Of a DNA stretch of 64,000 nt, positions 5,307-44,684 are shown one piece after another; positions within the stretch are counted from its first letter, which is position 1; every line of letters begins with the position of its first letter. The notes under the pieces were generated by a model. The model did not search any database. It was not told the origin of the DNA and saw only the letters and a program-made list of their open reading frames with translations. Made by a program: the position numbers and the translations under genes. This DNA is from Nioella sp. MMSF_3534 (GTDB taxonomy: Bacteria > Pseudomonadota > Alphaproteobacteria > Rhodobacterales > Rhodobacteraceae), in contig NZ_JASHJX010000007.1 in the NCBI RefSeq assembly GCF_030732985.1, positions 1 to 64,000 of the forward strand, read 5' to 3'.

Positions 5307-5783
5307 ATGCGGTGGATGCTGATCGCGCTGGCCCTTGTGCTGACCGCCTGCGGCGGCGGGGATGATCCCGTAACCCGACGCGGGGAACCGCCGCTCTACC
5401 CCAACGAAACGCCGGAGCTGCGGCGGTTGATCAACCACTATGCCGATCACTACGACGTGCCGGCGGCGCTGATCCATCGCCTGATCGACCGGGAAAGCGA
5501 CTATCGCCCGCATCTGCGCGCAGGGCCCTATTACGGGCTGCTGCAGATGCTGCCACAAACGGCGCGCACCATGGGCCATCGGGGACCCGCGTCCGAGTTG
5601 CTGGACCCGGACCAGAACCTCAGATGGGGGGTGAAATACCTGCGCGGGGCCTATCTGCTGTCGGGCGGGGATTTCGACGGCGCGATCCGGCGCTACGCGA
5701 GTGGATATTACTACGAAGCGCGGGACCGCTGCATGTTGGTCGAGACCGGGCTGGCGGAGCGGGAGATGCGCGGCTGCCGGTAA
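5307..5783 (+). CDS. lytic transglycosylase-like lipoprotein
   Basis: A 158-aa exported protein with a lipoprotein signal (MRWMLIALALVLTAC; lipobox LTAC, modified Cys15) and an SLT-type fold. Glu63 in LIDRESDY is the likely catalytic acid, followed by GLLQMLPQTARTMG and a helix with LRWGVKYLRGAYLLSGGD. It would cleave peptidoglycan from the periplasmic face. It is a short, single-domain member. It starts 3 bases after the AsmA-like gene and ends at a cluster of palindromes. Confidence 0.88.
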   Translation: MRWMLIALALVLTACGGGDDPVTRRGEPPLYPNETPELRRLINHYADHYDVPAALIHRLIDRESDYRPHLRAGPYYGLLQMLPQTARTMGHRGPASELLDPDQNLRWGVKYLRGAYLLSGGDFDGAIRRYASGYYYEARDRCMLVETGLAEREMRGCR

Positions 5784-5790
5784 GCCGCAA

Positions 5791-5890
5791 GAAGATTTTT
5801 CCAGAAAAATCTTCCCACTCTGGACAAGAAGAGTTTTCTTGAAAACTCTTCCTGGTATTCGAGTCCGAAAATTCTTCGGGAAGAATTTTC
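5791..5890. repeat. cluster A: three 24-nt palindromes between convergent genes
   Basis: Three perfect palindromes with 11-nt arms and a 2-nt centre lie at 5791-5814 (arm GAAGATTTTTC), 5828-5851 (arm GAAGAGTTTTC) and 5867-5890 (arm GAAAATTCTTC). They fill the gap between the convergent transglycosylase gene and gcrA, so they may act as a bidirectional terminator. The same three arms recur at 11434-11533, which suggests a dispersed family of intergenic repeats. Confidence 0.85.
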
Positions 5891-10174: not shown

Positions 10175-11353
10175 CTATTGACCTTCCAGCGCCGTGGCAG
10201 CGGCGTCAAGCCGGGTCAGCGCCTCTCCGATCTCGTCTTCGGTCAGTGTCAGCGACGGCAGCAGGCGCACCACGTTGTCCCCGCCCGGGACAGTCAGCAC
10301 CAGTTGATCATAACCTGCATTAACCACGTCCATATTGGGCACCTTGCACATGAGCCCGAGCATGAAGCCCTCGCCGCGCACACCCGCGAAGATATCGGGG
10401 TGGCTTGCCACCAGCCCCTCCAGCTTCTGCCGCAAGAGCCCCGCGCGGCGGTTCACATCGTCAAGGAAGCCATCGCGCGTGATCTCGTCCACCACGGCAC
10501 AGCCCACGGCACAGCCAAGCGGGTTGCCGCCATAGGTCGAGCCATGCGTGCCCGGGGTCATGCCGCAGGCGGCCTCTTCGGTTGCCAGCAACGCGCCGAG
10601 CGGGAAGCCCCCGCCGATGCCCTTCGCGACCATCATGATGTCGGGCGTGATCCCCGCCCATTCATGGGCGAAGAGCTTGCCTGTCCGGCCCATGCCGCAC
10701 TGGATTTCGTCGAGGATCAGCAGAAGCCCGTGTTCGTCGCAGAGGTCGCGCAGGCCCTTGAGGCAGGCGTCGGGCAGCGGGCGGATGCCGCCCTCGCCCT
10801 GCACGGGCTCGATCATGATCGCGCCCACCTCGGGCCGCGCCGCGGCCTCGCGCAGCGCGTCATGATCGCCGAAGGGCAGGGTGATGAAGCCGGGCAGAAG
10901 CGGGCCGAAGCCCTTGGTCAGCTTCTCGGATCCGGCGGCTGAGATCATGGCGATCGACCGGCCGTGGAACGAGCCGTCGAAGGTGATGATCGTCGTCCGT
11001 TCCGGCTGGCCCTTCTCGTGCCAGTACTTGCGCGCCATCTTGACGGCCAGTTCACCTGCCTCGGTGCCCGAGTTGCAGAAGAACATCGTGTCGGCGAAGG
11101 TATGTTCCACCAGCCGCTCGGCCAGCGCCTCCTGCTGGGGCACGTTATAAAGGTTAGATGTGTGCCAGAGCGCGTTCGCCTGGTCGGTCAGCGCCTTGAC
11201 CAGCGCCGGATGCGCATGGCCAAGCGCGGTCACCGCGATGCCGCCGCCGAGATCCAGAAAACGTCGGCCATCCGCTTCCACGAGCCAGGCCCCTTCGCCC
11301 TTGACGAAGGAGAGAGGTGCACGGGAATAGCTGGGTAGAACCGGCGTGATCAT
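10175..11353 (-). CDS. argD: acetylornithine aminotransferase
   Basis: A class-III PLP aminotransferase (392 aa) that makes N-acetylornithine in arginine synthesis. Visible features are the N-terminal GRRFLDLGGGIAVTALGHAHP, the cofactor-binding NSGTEAGELAVKMAR, the LILDEIQCGMGRTG region and the Schiff-base lysine in MVAKGIGGGFPLGA. ATG 11353 has a good AAGGAGAT site; an upstream start at 11389 lacks one. It is followed by argF. The promoter region is shared with palindrome cluster B. Confidence 0.95.
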   Translation of the reverse strand: MITPVLPSYSRAPLSFVKGEGAWLVEADGRRFLDLGGGIAVTALGHAHPALVKALTDQANALWHTSNLYNVPQQEALAERLVEHTFADTMFFCNSGTEAGELAVKMARKYWHEKGQPERTTIITFDGSFHGRSIAMISAAGSEKLTKGFGPLLPGFITLPFGDHDALREAAARPEVGAIMIEPVQGEGGIRPLPDACLKGLRDLCDEHGLLLILDEIQCGMGRTGKLFAHEWAGITPDIMMVAKGIGGGFPLGALLATEEAACGMTPGTHGSTYGGNPLGCAVGCAVVDEITRDGFLDDVNRRAGLLRQKLEGLVASHPDIFAGVRGEGFMLGLMCKVPNMDVVNAGYDQLVLTVPGGDNVVRLLPSLTLTEDEIGEALTRLDAAATALEGQ

Positions 11354-11433
11354 GGCGATCTCCTTGGGGTGAGTTGAAGAAACGGCCATGCCTCAAAGCC
11401 CATGCGAAGTCAACGAAATCAGGGGCTGAGACG

Positions 11434-11533
11434 GAAGAGTTTTCCGGAAAACTCTTCTTTGCGCCGGGAAAAATCTTCCGGAAGATTTTTCGGCGACTGA
11501 CGCACTTGCGAAAATTCTTCTGGAAGAATTTTC
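11434..11533. repeat. cluster B: three 24-nt palindromes upstream of argD
   Basis: The three palindromes of cluster A occur again here, at 11434-11457 (arm GAAGAGTTTTC), 11468-11491 (arm GAAAAATCTTC, the reverse orientation of the cluster A copy) and 11510-11533 (arm GAAAATTCTTC). Arms are perfect 11-mers and only the 2-nt centres differ. They lie just beyond the stop of the thioesterase gene and upstream of argD, so transcription termination between the two minus-strand genes is a plausible role. Confidence 0.85.
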
Positions 11534-12028: not shown

Positions 12029-12159
12029 AGGGCGATCCGGGCAATCTGGGTGTCCAGACCAGCATGCCCAACTGGCCTGCGCCGCTGCAATCCTGCTCTG
12101 ACTGCGGCGGCGCGAGGTGACGCAACGTTTCAGCTGGTCCAGCGGAAGACCGGGGGGTG

Positions 12160-14252: not shown

Positions 14253-14318
14253 GACCGACAGGCGCGCGACCAATTGGATGGTCGTGTCGGTCGGGACGTC
14301 CTGCGTTGCAGGAGGTCC
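14253..14318 (+). promoter_or_regulatory. structured 5' leader hiding the ribosome binding site of the RTX gene
   Basis: Two adjacent hairpins precede the start codon. The first pairs 14253-14260 (GACCGACA) with 14285-14292, and 14267-14272 (CGACCA) with 14279-14284. The second pairs 14294-14304 (GGACGTCCTGC) with 14308-14318 (GCAGGAGGTCC), with one mismatch and a 3-nt loop. Its right arm contains the whole Shine-Dalgarno AGGAGG (14310-14315), 8 nt before ATG 14324. A weaker 5-bp hairpin lies at 14234-14251. The rest of the 284-base gap (14038-14252) shows only a 6-bp inverted repeat (14089-14094/14106-14111). Confidence 0.6.
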
Positions 14319-14323
14319 GAGTA

Positions 14324-17300
14324 ATGCCTGACGCACTTGAACTGAACGTCACCACCACGACCGACGCCACGACGATTGCCCAGACCATTTTCGGGGACGG
14401 CATTCAGGTGGTGTCCGCCACGCTGACCGGCGCAGCGACCCAGGCCGGGACCTATTCGGGCGGCGACGCGGTCTCTGGTGGGGTGGTGCCGAGCGACAGC
14501 GGGGTGATCCTGTCGACCGGCAATGCCACCGATTTCACGACGGGGGGGACCGGGACAAACACCAATACCAGTGCCGGGACATCCACCGGCCATGGCGGGG
14601 CGGGGGACGCGGACCTCGATGCGATCTCGACCACCTCGACCTTCGACGCGGTGGTTTTCGAATCCACCTTCATTCCCGATGACGACTACATCACGATGCA
14701 GTTCGTCTTCTCGTCCGAGGAATATCTGGAATATGTGAACTCCGGTGTGAACGATACGCTCGGGGTCTGGGTCAATGGCAGTTTCGTGCCGCTGACCAGC
14801 TCGGGCGATACGGTGTCCATCGACACGGTGAACGACACATCGAATTCAAACCTCTATGTCGACAACCCGGCGGCGACTGACACCTACAATACCGAGATGG
14901 ACGGGTTCACCATCACCCTGTCTTTCAAGGCGCCGGTTAATCCGGGCGAGGAAAACACCATCAGGATCGGCCTCGCCGATGGCGGCGACAGCGCCTATGA
15001 CACCAACGTCCTGATCGCGGCGGACAGTATCCAGACCGTTGCCCTGGCCTTCGAGGATCATGTCACGCTAGAGGCCAACACCACCGCCGTGATCGACGTT
15101 CTCGAAAACGACCGCGACTCCTCCGGCGACGGGCTGTCCATCACCGAGATCAACGGGCAGGCCGTGGTTCCGGGCGACTCCGTGACCCTGAACACCGGCG
15201 AAGTCGTAACGCTGAACAGCGACTACACGTTCTCCGTCGAAACGGACGCGGATCTGGGGGAGACCGTCTTCACCTACACGGTCGAGAACGGCGACGGCGT
15301 CAGCGATGTCGGGTATGTCATTATTCAGACCGTGGCCGATGCCCCGCTTGACGGCATTGTCGAGGGAAGTGGCACGGACGATGTCATTGACGCGACCTTC
15401 ACCGGCGATCCCGAAGGCGACATGATCGACGCGAATGACGCGATCGGCGTGAACGGGACCACCGGAAACGACGACTATGTCCTCGCGCATGCTGGCGACG
15501 ATTCCGTTGTGACCGGAGCAGGCGATGACATCGTCGAGGGGGGCGACGGCAATGACACGATCTTTGGCGGCAACGGGCAGGCCAATGATGACGCCACTGC
15601 ACCTTTCGATGGCGATGACAGCCTCGTCGGGGGGGCCGGGGATGACTTTCTCTACGGTGAAGCGGGCAGCGATACGCTGATCGGCGGCACTGGCAATGAC
15701 AACCTGTCGGGCAGCATCGGTAATGACAGCCTTTCAGGCGGGGACGGCAACGACAGTTTCGATGGCGGCGCGGGCGACGACACGATCGACGGTGGCGCCG
15801 GGGCCGACTACATTTTCGCCGACAATGCGCTGAACCAGGGCGATGACAGCGTCGATGGCGGCGCGGGCAATGACACGGTGATCACGCTGGACGGGGCTGA
15901 CACCGTCGATGGCGGCACCGGCGATGACGTGATCATGACCGGCGGCGATGCTGACCTCATCCAGCTTTCCAATGGCTTCGGCAATGACACGATCACCGGC
16001 GGCGAGACGTTTACGGCGGGCGGTGCGGATGACGATACGCTGGATATGTCTGCGGTTACGTCGGGTGTTGAGCTGGACCTGACGTCGAACGACCCCGAAG
16101 CGGGCAGCGTCTTCGAGGTGGGAAGTGCCGGGGGCGACACCGATTTCACCGAGATCGAGAACATCATCCTCAGCGCCGGGCGCGACACGGTGCATCTGGC
16201 CGATGGCGGCGGTCAGGACGCGGTTGGCGGCTTCGACATTTCCGATTCCGGCGATGGCACGGCGGTCGATCAGCTCGATGTCAGCAAGCTGACCTCGGAC
16301 GGCGGCACCACGCCGGTGACCACCACCGATGTGACCGTGACAAGCGATCCCTATGGCAATGCGGTGCTGACCTTCCCGGGTGGCGAGAGCATCACCCTGG
16401 AAGGCGTCAACCCGCTGAACCTGTCCACGGTTGACGATCTTGTCGCCATCGGCATCCCCGACGGGCGCGATTACATCGTCGAGGGCACCAGCGGTTCGGA
16501 TACGATCGACGCGGGCTATAACGGTGACCCGGAGGGCGATCTGGTCGATGCGAACGATGCGTTGAACGGGTCCAATGACGATGTGATCGAAGCGGGGGCC
16601 GGGAATGACTCCGTCGTGGCTGGCGCGGGCGATGACTCGGTTCAGGGCGATGCGGGCAACGACACCATCGAGGGCGGCGCTGGCGCCGACACGCTGCGCG
16701 GTGGCACTGGCGACGACTCGATTGAGGGTGGTGACGGGGACGACGACCTCTATGGCGACGAAAACTCCGACACGATCATCGGCGGTGCAGGCAACGACAC
16801 AGTCGATGGCGGGACAGGCGCGGACAGCATCGACGGCGGGGCGGACGACGACTCGATCAGCGGCGGCGACGGCGATGACACGATCATCGGCGGTGCGGGC
16901 GATGACTGGCTGCGCGGCAGCGTCGGCAATGACGAGATGTGGGGCGGCACCGGGGACGATTACATCTGGGCCGGTTTCAACGACGACACGATCCGCATCG
17001 AGAACGATTTCGGCAATGATACGATCGAGGCCGAGGGCATCAACGAGGTCACCGGCGACGTTCTGGACCTCAGCCTTGTCACCGACGACCTGACCATCGA
17101 CCTGACCGGGTCCAACCCCGAAGCAGGCACGTTCAGCGACGGCATTTCGACCGCGCAGTTCAACGAGATCGAGAACATCATCCTTGGTGGCGGGCGCGAT
17201 ACCATAACCCTGGCCGATTTCGGCGGCGCGGATATCGTCCAGGCCTTTGACATGACCGACAGCGGCGACGGCTCGACCAATGACCAGCTCGACGTGTCGG

Positions 17301-20092
17301 GTCTGACCTCCGACTGGGGCACGACGCCGATCCATGCGGGCGATGTCACGGTCAGCGATGATGGCAACGGAAATGCGCTGCTGAGCTTTCCGGGCGGGGA
17401 GTCGATCACTCTGGTGGGCGTGGCCCCGAGCCAACTGGCGACCGAGGCCGACCTTGTGTCCATCGGCATTCCGCCCGCGCCCGACTTCATCGTGGAAGGC
17501 AGCTCGAGCGATGACACGATCGACGCGGGCTACACGGGCGACCCCGAGGGCGACAGGGTCGATGCAAACGATCATTCGGACGGCTCGAACGATGACAGCA
17601 TCGAAGCAGGCGGCGGCAATGACAGCGTCGTCGCGGGGGCGGGCGACGATACGGTCTGGGGCGGCAATGACGCGGGCGCGGATACCATTCTGGGCGGCGC
17701 GGGCAATGACCTGATCAACGGTCAGGGCGGCGATGACAGCATCGACGGCGGTGCCGATGACGACAGCATTGCGGCGGGCGCGGGCGATGACAGCGTCACC
17801 GGTGGCAGCGGCAATGACTCGATCAATGGCGGCACCGGCAACGACACGCTGGATGGCGGAACCGGCGCTGATCTTATCAGCGGTGCGGGCGGCAGCGACA
17901 GCATTCTTGGCGGCGACGATGCCGACACGGTCATGGTCTTCGACGGCTACGGCGCCGATACGATTGCGGGTGGCGAAGGCGGTGTCGATGCCGACATTCT
18001 GGATGCGTCCTGGATTGGCGCTGACCTGACGCTGGACCTGTCGGCCAATGGCGCGGCGGATAATGAAAGCGGCACGTTGACCTCGACCACAGCGGGCGAC
18101 GTGGCGAATTTCACTGAGATCGAGAGCGTTGTCCTGGGCTCCGGCGATGACAGCGTGACGGGCTCTTCCGGCGATGACAGCGTCGCCACTGGCGCGGGGG
18201 CCGACACGGTCGCGGGCGGTCAGGGCGATGACAACATCGCTCTTGGCGCCAATGATGGTGCTCAGGATGTGGTGGTTCTGTCGGATGGCGACGGGTCCGA
18301 CATCGTTCAGGAATTCGAAGCCCCGATCGACAATGGCAATGGCACCTACACCGGGCAGGATCAGCTGGATGTCAGCGGCCTGACCTCGGATGGCGGCACC
18401 ACGCCGGTCACCACCAATGACGTGACGGTCACGGATGATGGTTTCGGCAACGCGGTTCTGAGCTTCCCGGGCGGCGAAAGCATTACGCTTGTGGGTGTGG
18501 CTCCGAGCGAGGTGGACGGTGCGGCCGAACTGGTTGCCATCGGCATCCCGGACGGGCGCGATTTCATCGTCGAGGGCAGCTCGGGCAACGACACCATCGA
18601 CGTCGGCTATACCGGTGATCCGGAAGGCGACATGATCGACGCGCTGGATCATTCCGACGGGTCGAACGATGACAGCGTGCTGGCCGGTGCGGGCGATGAC
18701 TCGGTCGTGGCGGGGCTTGGCGATGACACGGTGTTCGGTCAGGACGGCGCGGATACGATCCTTGGCGGGGCTGGCAATGACAGCCTCGATGGCGACGACG
18801 TGTTCGCGACCGGTGGGGCCGACAGCATTGATGGCGGTGCCGGGAATGACACGATCATCGGTGACAGTTTCGATGACACGCTGATCGGCGGGGCCGGGGA
18901 TGACAGCATCTTCGCGGGGGCCGATGACGACCTTGTCTATGCAGGCACCGGTGACGACCAGGTCTTCGGCGAAGGCGGGGATGACACCGTCATTGTGGAA
19001 GACGGGTTCGGCAATGACAATCTGATCGCCGGTGAAACCAGCGAGACCGATGGCGACACGCTCGACCTGAGCAATCTGACCGTCGATACCACCATCGACC
19101 TGACCAGTGTGAACCCGGAAAAGGTGACCATCACCGATGGCACTGACACGATCAACGCGGAGGAGTTCGAGACTCTGATCCTCGGCGGTGGCGAGGATAC
19201 GCTGCAGCTTGGCGATGGTGGCGGCAGCGATGTTGTGTCCGGCTTCGACATGGGCGACCGCGGCGACGGGCACACCTTCGACCAGCTTGATGTGACGGGC
19301 CTGACCACCGACGGCACCACGCCCGTGACCGCCTGGGATGTCGTTGTCACCGACACCAACGGCAACGGCACCGGCGATGCAATCCTGACCTTCCCGGGCG
19401 GCGAAAGCATCACGCTGGAGGGCGTGGCCCCGAACCAGGTCGACACGATCCCGGAACTGTTCGCCATTGGCATTCCCTGCTTCACCCCCGGTGCGATGAT
19501 CATCACCGCCGACGGGGAACGCGCGGTGGAGGATATCCGCCCCGGCGACATGGTGCTGACCGCCGACAACGGCTTTCAGCCGGTCCGGTGGGTGGGCAGT
19601 CGTACCCTGACCGGCGAGGAGCTGGAGGCAAAGCCGGAACTCAAGCCCGTGGTGATCCGCAAGGGTGCGTTCGGCAATGACCGCAAGATGCTGGTGTCAC
19701 CGCAGCACGGGTTTGTCATGAAGACCGATACCGGCGAACGGCTGATCCGCGCCAAGCACGCGGCGGAGCTCTATGGCGGGCAGATCGCGCGGATCGACCG
19801 CAAATGCGAGCAGGTGACCTATGTGCACATCATGTTCGACCGGCACGAGATCGTGTTCGCCGAAGGCGCCCGGACCGAGGCCTTCTATCCCGGCCCGCAG
19901 GCGCTGAAATCCATCGACCGAGAGGCGATGGCCGAACTGCTGACCCTGTTCCCGGAACTGGCGCATGTTGCCTTTGGCGAGGAAGGTGCCGCAGGTCGCT
20001 ATGGCCCGCCAGCCCGCGATTACCTGCTGGGACGCGATATCCGTGCCATGAAGAAAGGCGCAGGGGGCATGCAGCCGACCCGCGCGGCCTGA
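14324..20092 (+). CDS. giant RTX calcium-binding protein with C-terminal Hint domain
   Basis: A 1922-aa acidic protein without an N-terminal signal peptide, as expected for type I secretion. Residues about 15-235 resemble the choice-of-anchor-L type domain (SGVILSTGN, FVFSSEEYLEYVNSGVND). About 245-340 is a cadherin/VCBS-like domain with VLENDRD. Residues 345-1715 hold four long modules, each packed with RTX nonapeptides (GGxGxDxxx) and closing with a DQLDVSxLTSDxGTTPV and FPGGESITL segment. Residues 1719-1880 are a Hint_2 domain starting CFTPGAMIITADGERAVEDI, a Hedgehog/intein-type self-processing fold with Cys1719. AGGAGG decides the ATG. No secretion genes are nearby. A surface or released adhesin/enzyme scaffold is likely; the exact role is unknown. 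Confidence 0.88.
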   Translation: MPDALELNVTTTTDATTIAQTIFGDGIQVVSATLTGAATQAGTYSGGDAVSGGVVPSDSGVILSTGNATDFTTGGTGTNTNTSAGTSTGHGGAGDADLDAISTTSTFDAVVFESTFIPDDDYITMQFVFSSEEYLEYVNSGVNDTLGVWVNGSFVPLTSSGDTVSIDTVNDTSNSNLYVDNPAATDTYNTEMDGFTITLSFKAPVNPGEENTIRIGLADGGDSAYDTNVLIAADSIQTVALAFEDHVTLEANTTAVIDVLENDRDSSGDGLSITEINGQAVVPGDSVTLNTGEVVTLNSDYTFSVETDADLGETVFTYTVENGDGVSDVGYVIIQTVADAPLDGIVEGSGTDDVIDATFTGDPEGDMIDANDAIGVNGTTGNDDYVLAHAGDDSVVTGAGDDIVEGGDGNDTIFGGNGQANDDATAPFDGDDSLVGGAGDDFLYGEAGSDTLIGGTGNDNLSGSIGNDSLSGGDGNDSFDGGAGDDTIDGGAGADYIFADNALNQGDDSVDGGAGNDTVITLDGADTVDGGTGDDVIMTGGDADLIQLSNGFGNDTITGGETFTAGGADDDTLDMSAVTSGVELDLTSNDPEAGSVFEVGSAGGDTDFTEIENIILSAGRDTVHLADGGGQDAVGGFDISDSGDGTAVDQLDVSKLTSDGGTTPVTTTDVTVTSDPYGNAVLTFPGGESITLEGVNPLNLSTVDDLVAIGIPDGRDYIVEGTSGSDTIDAGYNGDPEGDLVDANDALNGSNDDVIEAGAGNDSVVAGAGDDSVQGDAGNDTIEGGAGADTLRGGTGDDSIEGGDGDDDLYGDENSDTIIGGAGNDTVDGGTGADSIDGGADDDSISGGDGDDTIIGGAGDDWLRGSVGNDEMWGGTGDDYIWAGFNDDTIRIENDFGNDTIEAEGINEVTGDVLDLSLVTDDLTIDLTGSNPEAGTFSDGISTAQFNEIENIILGGGRDTITLADFGGADIVQAFDMTDSGDGSTNDQLDVSGLTSDWGTTPIHAGDVTVSDDGNGNALLSFPGGESITLVGVAPSQLATEADLVSIGIPPAPDFIVEGSSSDDTIDAGYTGDPEGDRVDANDHSDGSNDDSIEAGGGNDSVVAGAGDDTVWGGNDAGADTILGGAGNDLINGQGGDDSIDGGADDDSIAAGAGDDSVTGGSGNDSINGGTGNDTLDGGTGADLISGAGGSDSILGGDDADTVMVFDGYGADTIAGGEGGVDADILDASWIGADLTLDLSANGAADNESGTLTSTTAGDVANFTEIESVVLGSGDDSVTGSSGDDSVATGAGADTVAGGQGDDNIALGANDGAQDVVVLSDGDGSDIVQEFEAPIDNGNGTYTGQDQLDVSGLTSDGGTTPVTTNDVTVTDDGFGNAVLSFPGGESITLVGVAPSEVDGAAELVAIGIPDGRDFIVEGSSGNDTIDVGYTGDPEGDMIDALDHSDGSNDDSVLAGAGDDSVVAGLGDDTVFGQDGADTILGGAGNDSLDGDDVFATGGADSIDGGAGNDTIIGDSFDDTLIGGAGDDSIFAGADDDLVYAGTGDDQVFGEGGDDTVIVEDGFGNDNLIAGETSETDGDTLDLSNLTVDTTIDLTSVNPEKVTITDGTDTINAEEFETLILGGGEDTLQLGDGGGSDVVSGFDMGDRGDGHTFDQLDVTGLTTDGTTPVTAWDVVVTDTNGNGTGDAILTFPGGESITLEGVAPNQVDTIPELFAIGIPCFTPGAMIITADGERAVEDIRPGDMVLTADNGFQPVRWVGSRTLTGEELEAKPELKPVVIRKGAFGNDRKMLVSPQHGFVMKTDTGERLIRAKHAAELYGGQIARIDRKCEQVTYVHIMFDRHEIVFAEGARTEAFYPGPQALKSIDREAMAELLTLFPELAHVAFGEEGAAGRYGPPARDYLLGRDIRAMKKGAGGMQPTRAA
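15356..19477 (+). repeat. four tandem ~1-kb modules inside the RTX gene
   Basis: Modules start at residues 345, 718, 1056 and 1415 (bases 15356, 16475, 17489, 18566), each with a variant of IVEGSSGxDTIDxGYTGDPEGD. They then contain RTX repeats and end with the DQLDVSGLTSD...FPGGESITL...IGIP cassette. Spacing is about 1119, 1014 and 1077 bases, and the last copy is shorter. The copies have diverged in sequence and in number of nonapeptides. Confidence 0.8.
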
Positions 20093-44514: not shown

Positions 44515-44522
44515 GGCGAAAA

Positions 44523-44572
44523 ACAGGGGGGTGCCGTGCGTACACCCCCTGTACACCCCCCGTACACCCCCT
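44523..44572 (+). repeat. three tandem 11-bp units with an upstream inverted arm
   Basis: GTACACCCCC plus T or C repeats exactly three times at 44540-44550, 44551-44561 and 44562-44572. ACAGGGGG at 44523-44530 can pair with the CCCCCTGT in the repeat array (for example 44545-44552), giving a terminator-like hairpin after the acyl-CoA synthetase gene. A second hairpin (10-nt arms) lies at 44627-44657. Confidence 0.7.
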
Positions 44573-44684
44573 GTGCATACGGAATGGGAGAATGGCGCAG
44601 GGGTATATGTTTGGCAATAGGGTTGACGAAAGGCGGTGACTCGGACGCCGTCTTTCGGGTGATGTGTGGCAGAAGGGGGCCGTG

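Follow-up and report, generated by a model that had tools for sequence, protein, structure and literature searches.

Palindrome triplets directly after the stop codons of many unrelated genes in Nioella sp. MMSF_3534 point to a maintained structural signal

We found that a module of three palindromes lies after the stop codons of many unrelated genes in Nioella sp. MMSF_3534, and the evidence points to a structural signal that is maintained and does not move freely. Two copies occur in the 64,000-nucleotide stretch of DNA analysed here (the window), cluster A at 5791-5890 and cluster B at 11434-11533, each with three 24-bp palindromes composed of 11-bp arms and a 2-nt centre. With X for GAAGANTTTTC and X' for its reverse complement, a unit is either X-X' or X'-X. 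Cluster B is made up of a G-core X-X' unit (11434-11457, GAAGAGTTTTC-CG-GAAAACTCTTC), a T-core X'-X unit (11468-11491, GAAAAATCTTC-CG-GAAGATTTTTC) and an A-core X'-X unit (11510-11533, GAAAATTCTTC-TG-GAAGAATTTTC), and cluster A of a T-core X-X' unit (5791-5814), a G-core X-X' unit (5828-5851) and an A-core X'-X unit (5867-5890). The first-pass annotation had read the two clusters as the same three arm types in a different order with the T-core unit reversed, which is indeed the case. Chance as an origin is excluded, because the pattern GAARANTYTTCNNGAARANTYTTC was matched six times in the window and never in 100 dinucleotide shuffles (three or fewer mismatches) and had 37 exact matches in the whole genome (4.15 Mb in 105 contigs, GC 0.64), compared to 0 for the reversed pattern. 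Eight palindromes in the window had arms of at least 9 bp; six of them form clusters A and B and the remaining two are GC-rich, so that no AT-rich palindrome of this arm length occurs in the window outside the clusters. All 12 arms found by a motif search of the window sit inside the six cluster palindromes. An Rfam search of the window gave no match at the gathering score.

Allowing up to three mismatches, the genome held 56 matches. Palindrome scans of 21 fetched stretches around the matches listed, together with A and B, yielded at least 25 clusters, and there may be further diverged ones. Among the matches listed, the 25 clusters comprised 17 triplets, 7 doublets and 1 lone unit. Triplets were thus the rule in this genome-wide search, in line with the earlier view of the three palindromes as a set, because 17 of 25 clusters had three units and only one had a single unit; the refuting condition named in the first-pass annotation, common single units, did not hold. 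The notion of a constant set of three arms had to be given up, since 13 arm cores were found across 21 clusters. The doublets of L001 (1963-2011), L007 (7470-7514) and L009 (1991-2037) form a loop-less sub-class that always has two, nearly touching palindromes, lacks the central two bases and has a TTCGAA centre. A GC-rich hairpin stands next to the AT-rich units in L163 (1003-1097), L008 (2010-2137) and L009 (1826-2037), and in the latter two it comes after the other gene of a converging pair. Contig breaks were seen inside palindromes at L110/L111 (G297 C174/C175) and L118/L119 (G297 C123/C124), so that draft genomes probably contain more copies than are counted in them.

The arms have the form GAARANTYTTC and vary from unit to unit, yet they stay self-complementary. 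In a gapless alignment of 55 units (38 distinct), the TTC..GAA around the centre was invariant in all 55. Within the 38 distinct units, 98.6% of 418 pair cells were Watson-Crick and 69 cells carried double changes; 7 of the 11 pairs changed on both sides, unpaired cells were confined to the outermost pair, and the covariation score was reached by none of 500 shuffles. No G-U pair was found in these 38 own-genome units. A wider set of 194 units from loci of twelve genomes, which includes a few unrelated palindromes, showed only a handful of internal wobbles. Just two of these, at L115 and L161, adjoin a gene of a single sense; each is G-U in the sense strand, and they are too few to count. The central dinucleotides of the 55 units were TG (18), CA (14), CG (11) and others (12). 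The stems are not GC-rich, with a unit GC mostly of 0.23-0.42 in a genome of 0.64. Within clusters, 7 of 55 pairs had identical arms, fewer than the 12.9 that permutations predict (P 0.014; 21 of the 25 clusters, without the lone unit and the loop-less doublets), although paralogues are not independent.

The outer two units had opposite polarities in all 14 triplets that could be classified, the other 3 of the 17 having a tie at an end, and the permutation P was 0.00045 with ties counted as failures. Adjacent units followed no such rule (14/34). It appeared that folding (32 strand foldings, from 16 of the 17 triplets) gives no clear reason for this arrangement, to which common descent could contribute. 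Avoidance of cross-pairing was considered as the cause but is a weak one: with the third unit flipped, the gap to the minimum grew in 21 of 32 foldings as RNA and in 10 of 32 as DNA. By inspection, the rule is broken in at least one triplet of G104 (L155).

The clusters are tied to stop codons. In 24 of the 25 clusters listed, the cluster started no more than 15 nt from a stop codon; the count includes L005 and L021, where small genes missed by the codon-usage gene caller end 8 and 0 nt from the clusters. For comparison, the positive gaps between genes total about 8.1 kb in the window, of which an estimated 5.6% is no more than 15 nt past a stop. According to the caller, 12 clusters lie between converging, 12 between same-direction and 1 between diverging genes. 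The converging context thus holds for 12 of 25 clusters; of the 48 pairs of adjacent genes in the window, 7 converge. The exception, L020, is between divergent histone-deacetylase-like and DUF167 genes. The neighbours are ordinary genes (20 proteins were examined), such as GcrA, SufB, a class-I tRNA synthetase, Ndk and PhoH, and neither tRNA nor tmRNA adjoined the clusters in 21 own-genome loci.

Clusters A and B were both said to be at gene ends, and this was confirmed. Cluster A fills a gap of converging genes, 7 nt after an SLT-domain transglycosylase gene (5307-5783, plus strand) and 10 nt from the end of the gcrA gene (PF07750; 5901-6485, minus strand). Cluster B begins 6 nt past the stop of a thioesterase ORF (4HBT, PF03061; 11540-12367, minus strand), whose true start is probably near 12030, and lies between that stop codon and a TTGACTT stretch preceding an argD-like class-III aminotransferase ORF (10175-11389, minus strand; start at 11389 or 11353). 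Elsewhere in the window, a 1928-aa ORF at 14306-20092 contains many GGAGDD-type repeats and ends with the C-terminal stretch CFTPGAMIITADGERAVEDIRPGD, a putative Hint domain by its look, and around 44515-44580 GTACACCCCC is repeated in a long gap between converging genes, in a region of low GC (0.57 over 44-46 kb).

Comparison of the syntenic gaps with those of relatives, as had been suggested, revealed that cluster sites are common to sister species and that the A and B sites are occupied at the same place. The argD identity to the window was 98% in G297 and G296, 93% in G186 and 86% in G295 and G298. At site A, G296 and G297 have the same units, bar one outermost base in G297; G186 again has three palindromes, with different arms and GC-rich extensions; G295 and G298 have one, and Alterinioella (L022) has two GC-rich ones. 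At site B, the units are unchanged in G297 and decayed in G186, and the cluster is not present in G295 and G298. It is also missing from Alterinioella and HLUCCO18 (L023), in which the argD upstream region follows directly after the thioesterase stop and no target duplication is readable at the empty site. In G296, the site (L142, G296:C8, 1566-1662) holds three palindromes of another make, all replaced in concert, with CAA..TTG ends and three-base loops (TTT/AAA/TTT), units 1 and 2 being exact inverted copies; a search of 61 genomes found this make in no other one.

From 35 orthologue alignments we used 26, excluding 9 that were rearranged or strongly diverged. Changes were found at 10 of 1566 stem positions (0.6%), compared to 35 of 154 in the loops (23%), 91 of 430 in the spacers (21%) and 207 of 2049 in the partly coding flanks; the counts are not independent because orthologue pairs share branches. 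Four of the ten stem changes make up two compensated pairs (L003/L134 and L019/L125), and a fifth, in G297, is the half-step of one of these pairs and gives a G-U in the sense strand. The other stem changes comprise four at outermost bases and one in a unit bearing an indel. The number of units shifts from three to one at L008/L132, is two against three at L007/L135 and falls from three to two at L013/L128 via a deletion between two like units. Across species, each site retains its own arm core in these alignments.

In the family as a whole the element is patchy. A one-unit covariance model gave 117, 114, 100, 19, 6 and 6 matches in six species of the genus, counting both strands. Exact units numbered 37 in the own genome and 3 in the sister G186, and exact matches were present in 9 of 295 family genomes, most of which had none; under stricter filters, the model matched in 9 of 149 genomes. 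Of 20 stretches retrieved for six other genera, 16 contained at least two palindromes in tandem. Among the fetched stretches, G280 and G081 had mostly pairs and G104 mostly three, so the unit count looks typical of the lineage.

We suggest, tentatively and with slightly less than even confidence, that the module is inherited vertically and forms hairpins which act in both directions as a barrier at the 3' ends of transcripts, with RNA as the actor. The data show the position, the conserved arms with their strict complementarity, the free loops and spacers and the orthology of the sites; the barrier function and the role of RNA are inferred from these. The three palindromes would act as a 3'-end module locked in position. 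As perfect palindromes, the units would give hairpins with stems of about 10 bp, starting 0-15 nt past the stop codon, whichever side they are transcribed from. These could form a two-way barrier that either ends transcription or stops the 3'-to-5' exonucleases that trim Rho-ended transcripts, the latter alternative being raised because no U-tract follows: after the last unit there was a mean of 1.9 T in 8 nt and a maximum of 4 (33 ends). At site B, the module would separate transcription of the thioesterase gene from the argD upstream region. Pairing between the arms matters, because the variable core bases match across arms without exception in the aligned own-genome units, and arm pairing together with the gene-end position favours a two-way barrier acting at the RNA level. 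The missing U-tract, the near-absence of G-U pairs, the cross-unit RNA folds and the divergent L020 speak against an RNA barrier. In the 32 strand foldings, equilibrium RNA folds favoured cross-unit pairing over three local hairpins, whose mean gap to the minimum was 8.5 kcal/mol as RNA and 2.9 as DNA. In addition, threefold redundancy should relax the selection on each unit, yet the stems are almost frozen.

A rival reading is an element acting as double-stranded or cruciform DNA, for example as an insulator of gene ends that works through topology or by binding a protein, which we consider rather unlikely as a whole. It would explain the strict symmetry better than an RNA barrier, as the units are perfectly Watson-Crick without G-U, the arms are AT-rich in a GC-rich genome, the TTC..GAA core does not vary, local hairpins are near the DNA minimum and one cluster lies in a divergent gap. 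A DNA-level action with gyrase and IHF has also been proposed for the BIMEs of Escherichia coli. However, this explanation accounts less well for the position after stop codons, a strong preference that points to transcript ends, and if a dimeric protein were the only factor, nothing would make the variable core position (A, T, G or C) agree between the two arms. Converging transcription makes positive, not negative, supercoils, which is a further point against it. The perfect palindromes could instead be kept up by mutation, through template switching between arms without any selection. Template switching as a maker and keeper of hairpins is treated in parts of PMC8794818 and PMC8604942, mismatched intermediates were hardly seen, and the G296 units at site B changed in concert, two of them as exact inverted copies. 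Compensated changes would then be expected at about the loop rate, but only two pairs occurred in 1566 stem positions and the arm core is specific to each site across species, which makes this upkeep highly improbable.

The first-pass annotation had supposed a composite that moves, or is maintained, as a triplet. The maintained part of this fits better, as no recent movement was seen, and the evidence does not support a composite element that moves. A dispersed mobile palindromic element of the REP/BIME, RIME or MITE kind, now passive in tolerated places after its copies rose in one clade, would account for the patchy copy number (37 exact units against 3 in G186, any at all in 9 of 295 genomes, and 117 to 6 model matches in the genus). 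We regard it as improbable nonetheless, given that sister species share the sites, that paralogous clusters have neither spacers nor flanks in common by inspection, and that the stems change about 30-fold more slowly than the loops, which is unexpected for passive DNA. An origin by a RAYT was considered and rejected, as the genome has no intact RAYT-type gene and only a broken Y1 fragment. This is the single Y1_Tnp match (L102, 1333-1854; profile positions 24-120 of 121), degenerate, frame-damaged and without a clean start, which is a probable IS200/IS605 remnant and has no cluster palindrome beside it.

Several known systems resemble the clusters in part. RIME and similar alphaproteobacterial repeats are about 100 bp long, intergenic and composed of several palindromes, a likeness in size, make-up and location that is by description only. 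The res sites of serine resolvases also contain three dimer sites, with arms of about 12 bp, over some 100 bp, whereas the clusters are some 25 dispersed sets of perfect palindromes beside ordinary genes. A DNA uptake sequence, which would be frequent as single copies, also in genes, was rejected, as no arms in the window lie outside its six palindromes. Intrinsic and bidirectional terminators share inverted repeats right after stops, often between convergent genes, with conserved arms and free loops; the clusters differ in that they lack a U-tract, have AT-rich stems, line up three units and belong to a sequence family spread over many loci. Conserved arms and variable spacers are described for inverted repeats near terminators across genomes in part of PMC13155455, and sections of PMC6060812 report that E. 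coli inverted repeats are enriched just downstream of stop codons, where perfect repeats mostly belong to intrinsic terminators. REPs and BIMEs of enterobacteria and pseudomonads are likewise short extragenic palindromes in combinations, mostly at 3' ends, and the clusters are repeated extragenic palindromes of 20-40 bp like them. They differ in being perfect, in numbering only about 60 units, in their unconserved spacers and in the lack of an intact RAYT; no GTAG or CGTC tag, which defines one end of a REP in a passage of PMC3733652, was found in the 55 aligned units by inspection. Part of PMC12306157 deals with REPs that lie no more than 15 nt from a reading frame. We found no account of such triplets in Rhodobacteraceae in open-licence papers, and do not claim that they are absent from print.

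The clusters are best described as a lineage-specific element akin to gene-end hairpins or BIME-like elements, and a new mechanism is not proven. It is conceivable, if somewhat doubtful, that they represent an undescribed gene-end class of Rhodobacteraceae, a counted array of AT-rich perfect palindromes (three in this genus, two in some others) with opposite outer polarity that would serve as a U-tract-free two-way 3'-end barrier or as a DNA insulator; under this reading, the strict Watson-Crick symmetry implies that both strands matter. The near-frozen arms, the drifting loops and the opposite outer polarity place sharp constraints on any mechanism. The clusters offer about 25 natural replicates, in one genome, of a compact putative two-way gene-end signal without the textbook U-tract, and at least two closely related sister species carry orthologues. 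This set allows the ways in which transcripts are ended or protected in alphaproteobacteria to be tested directly.
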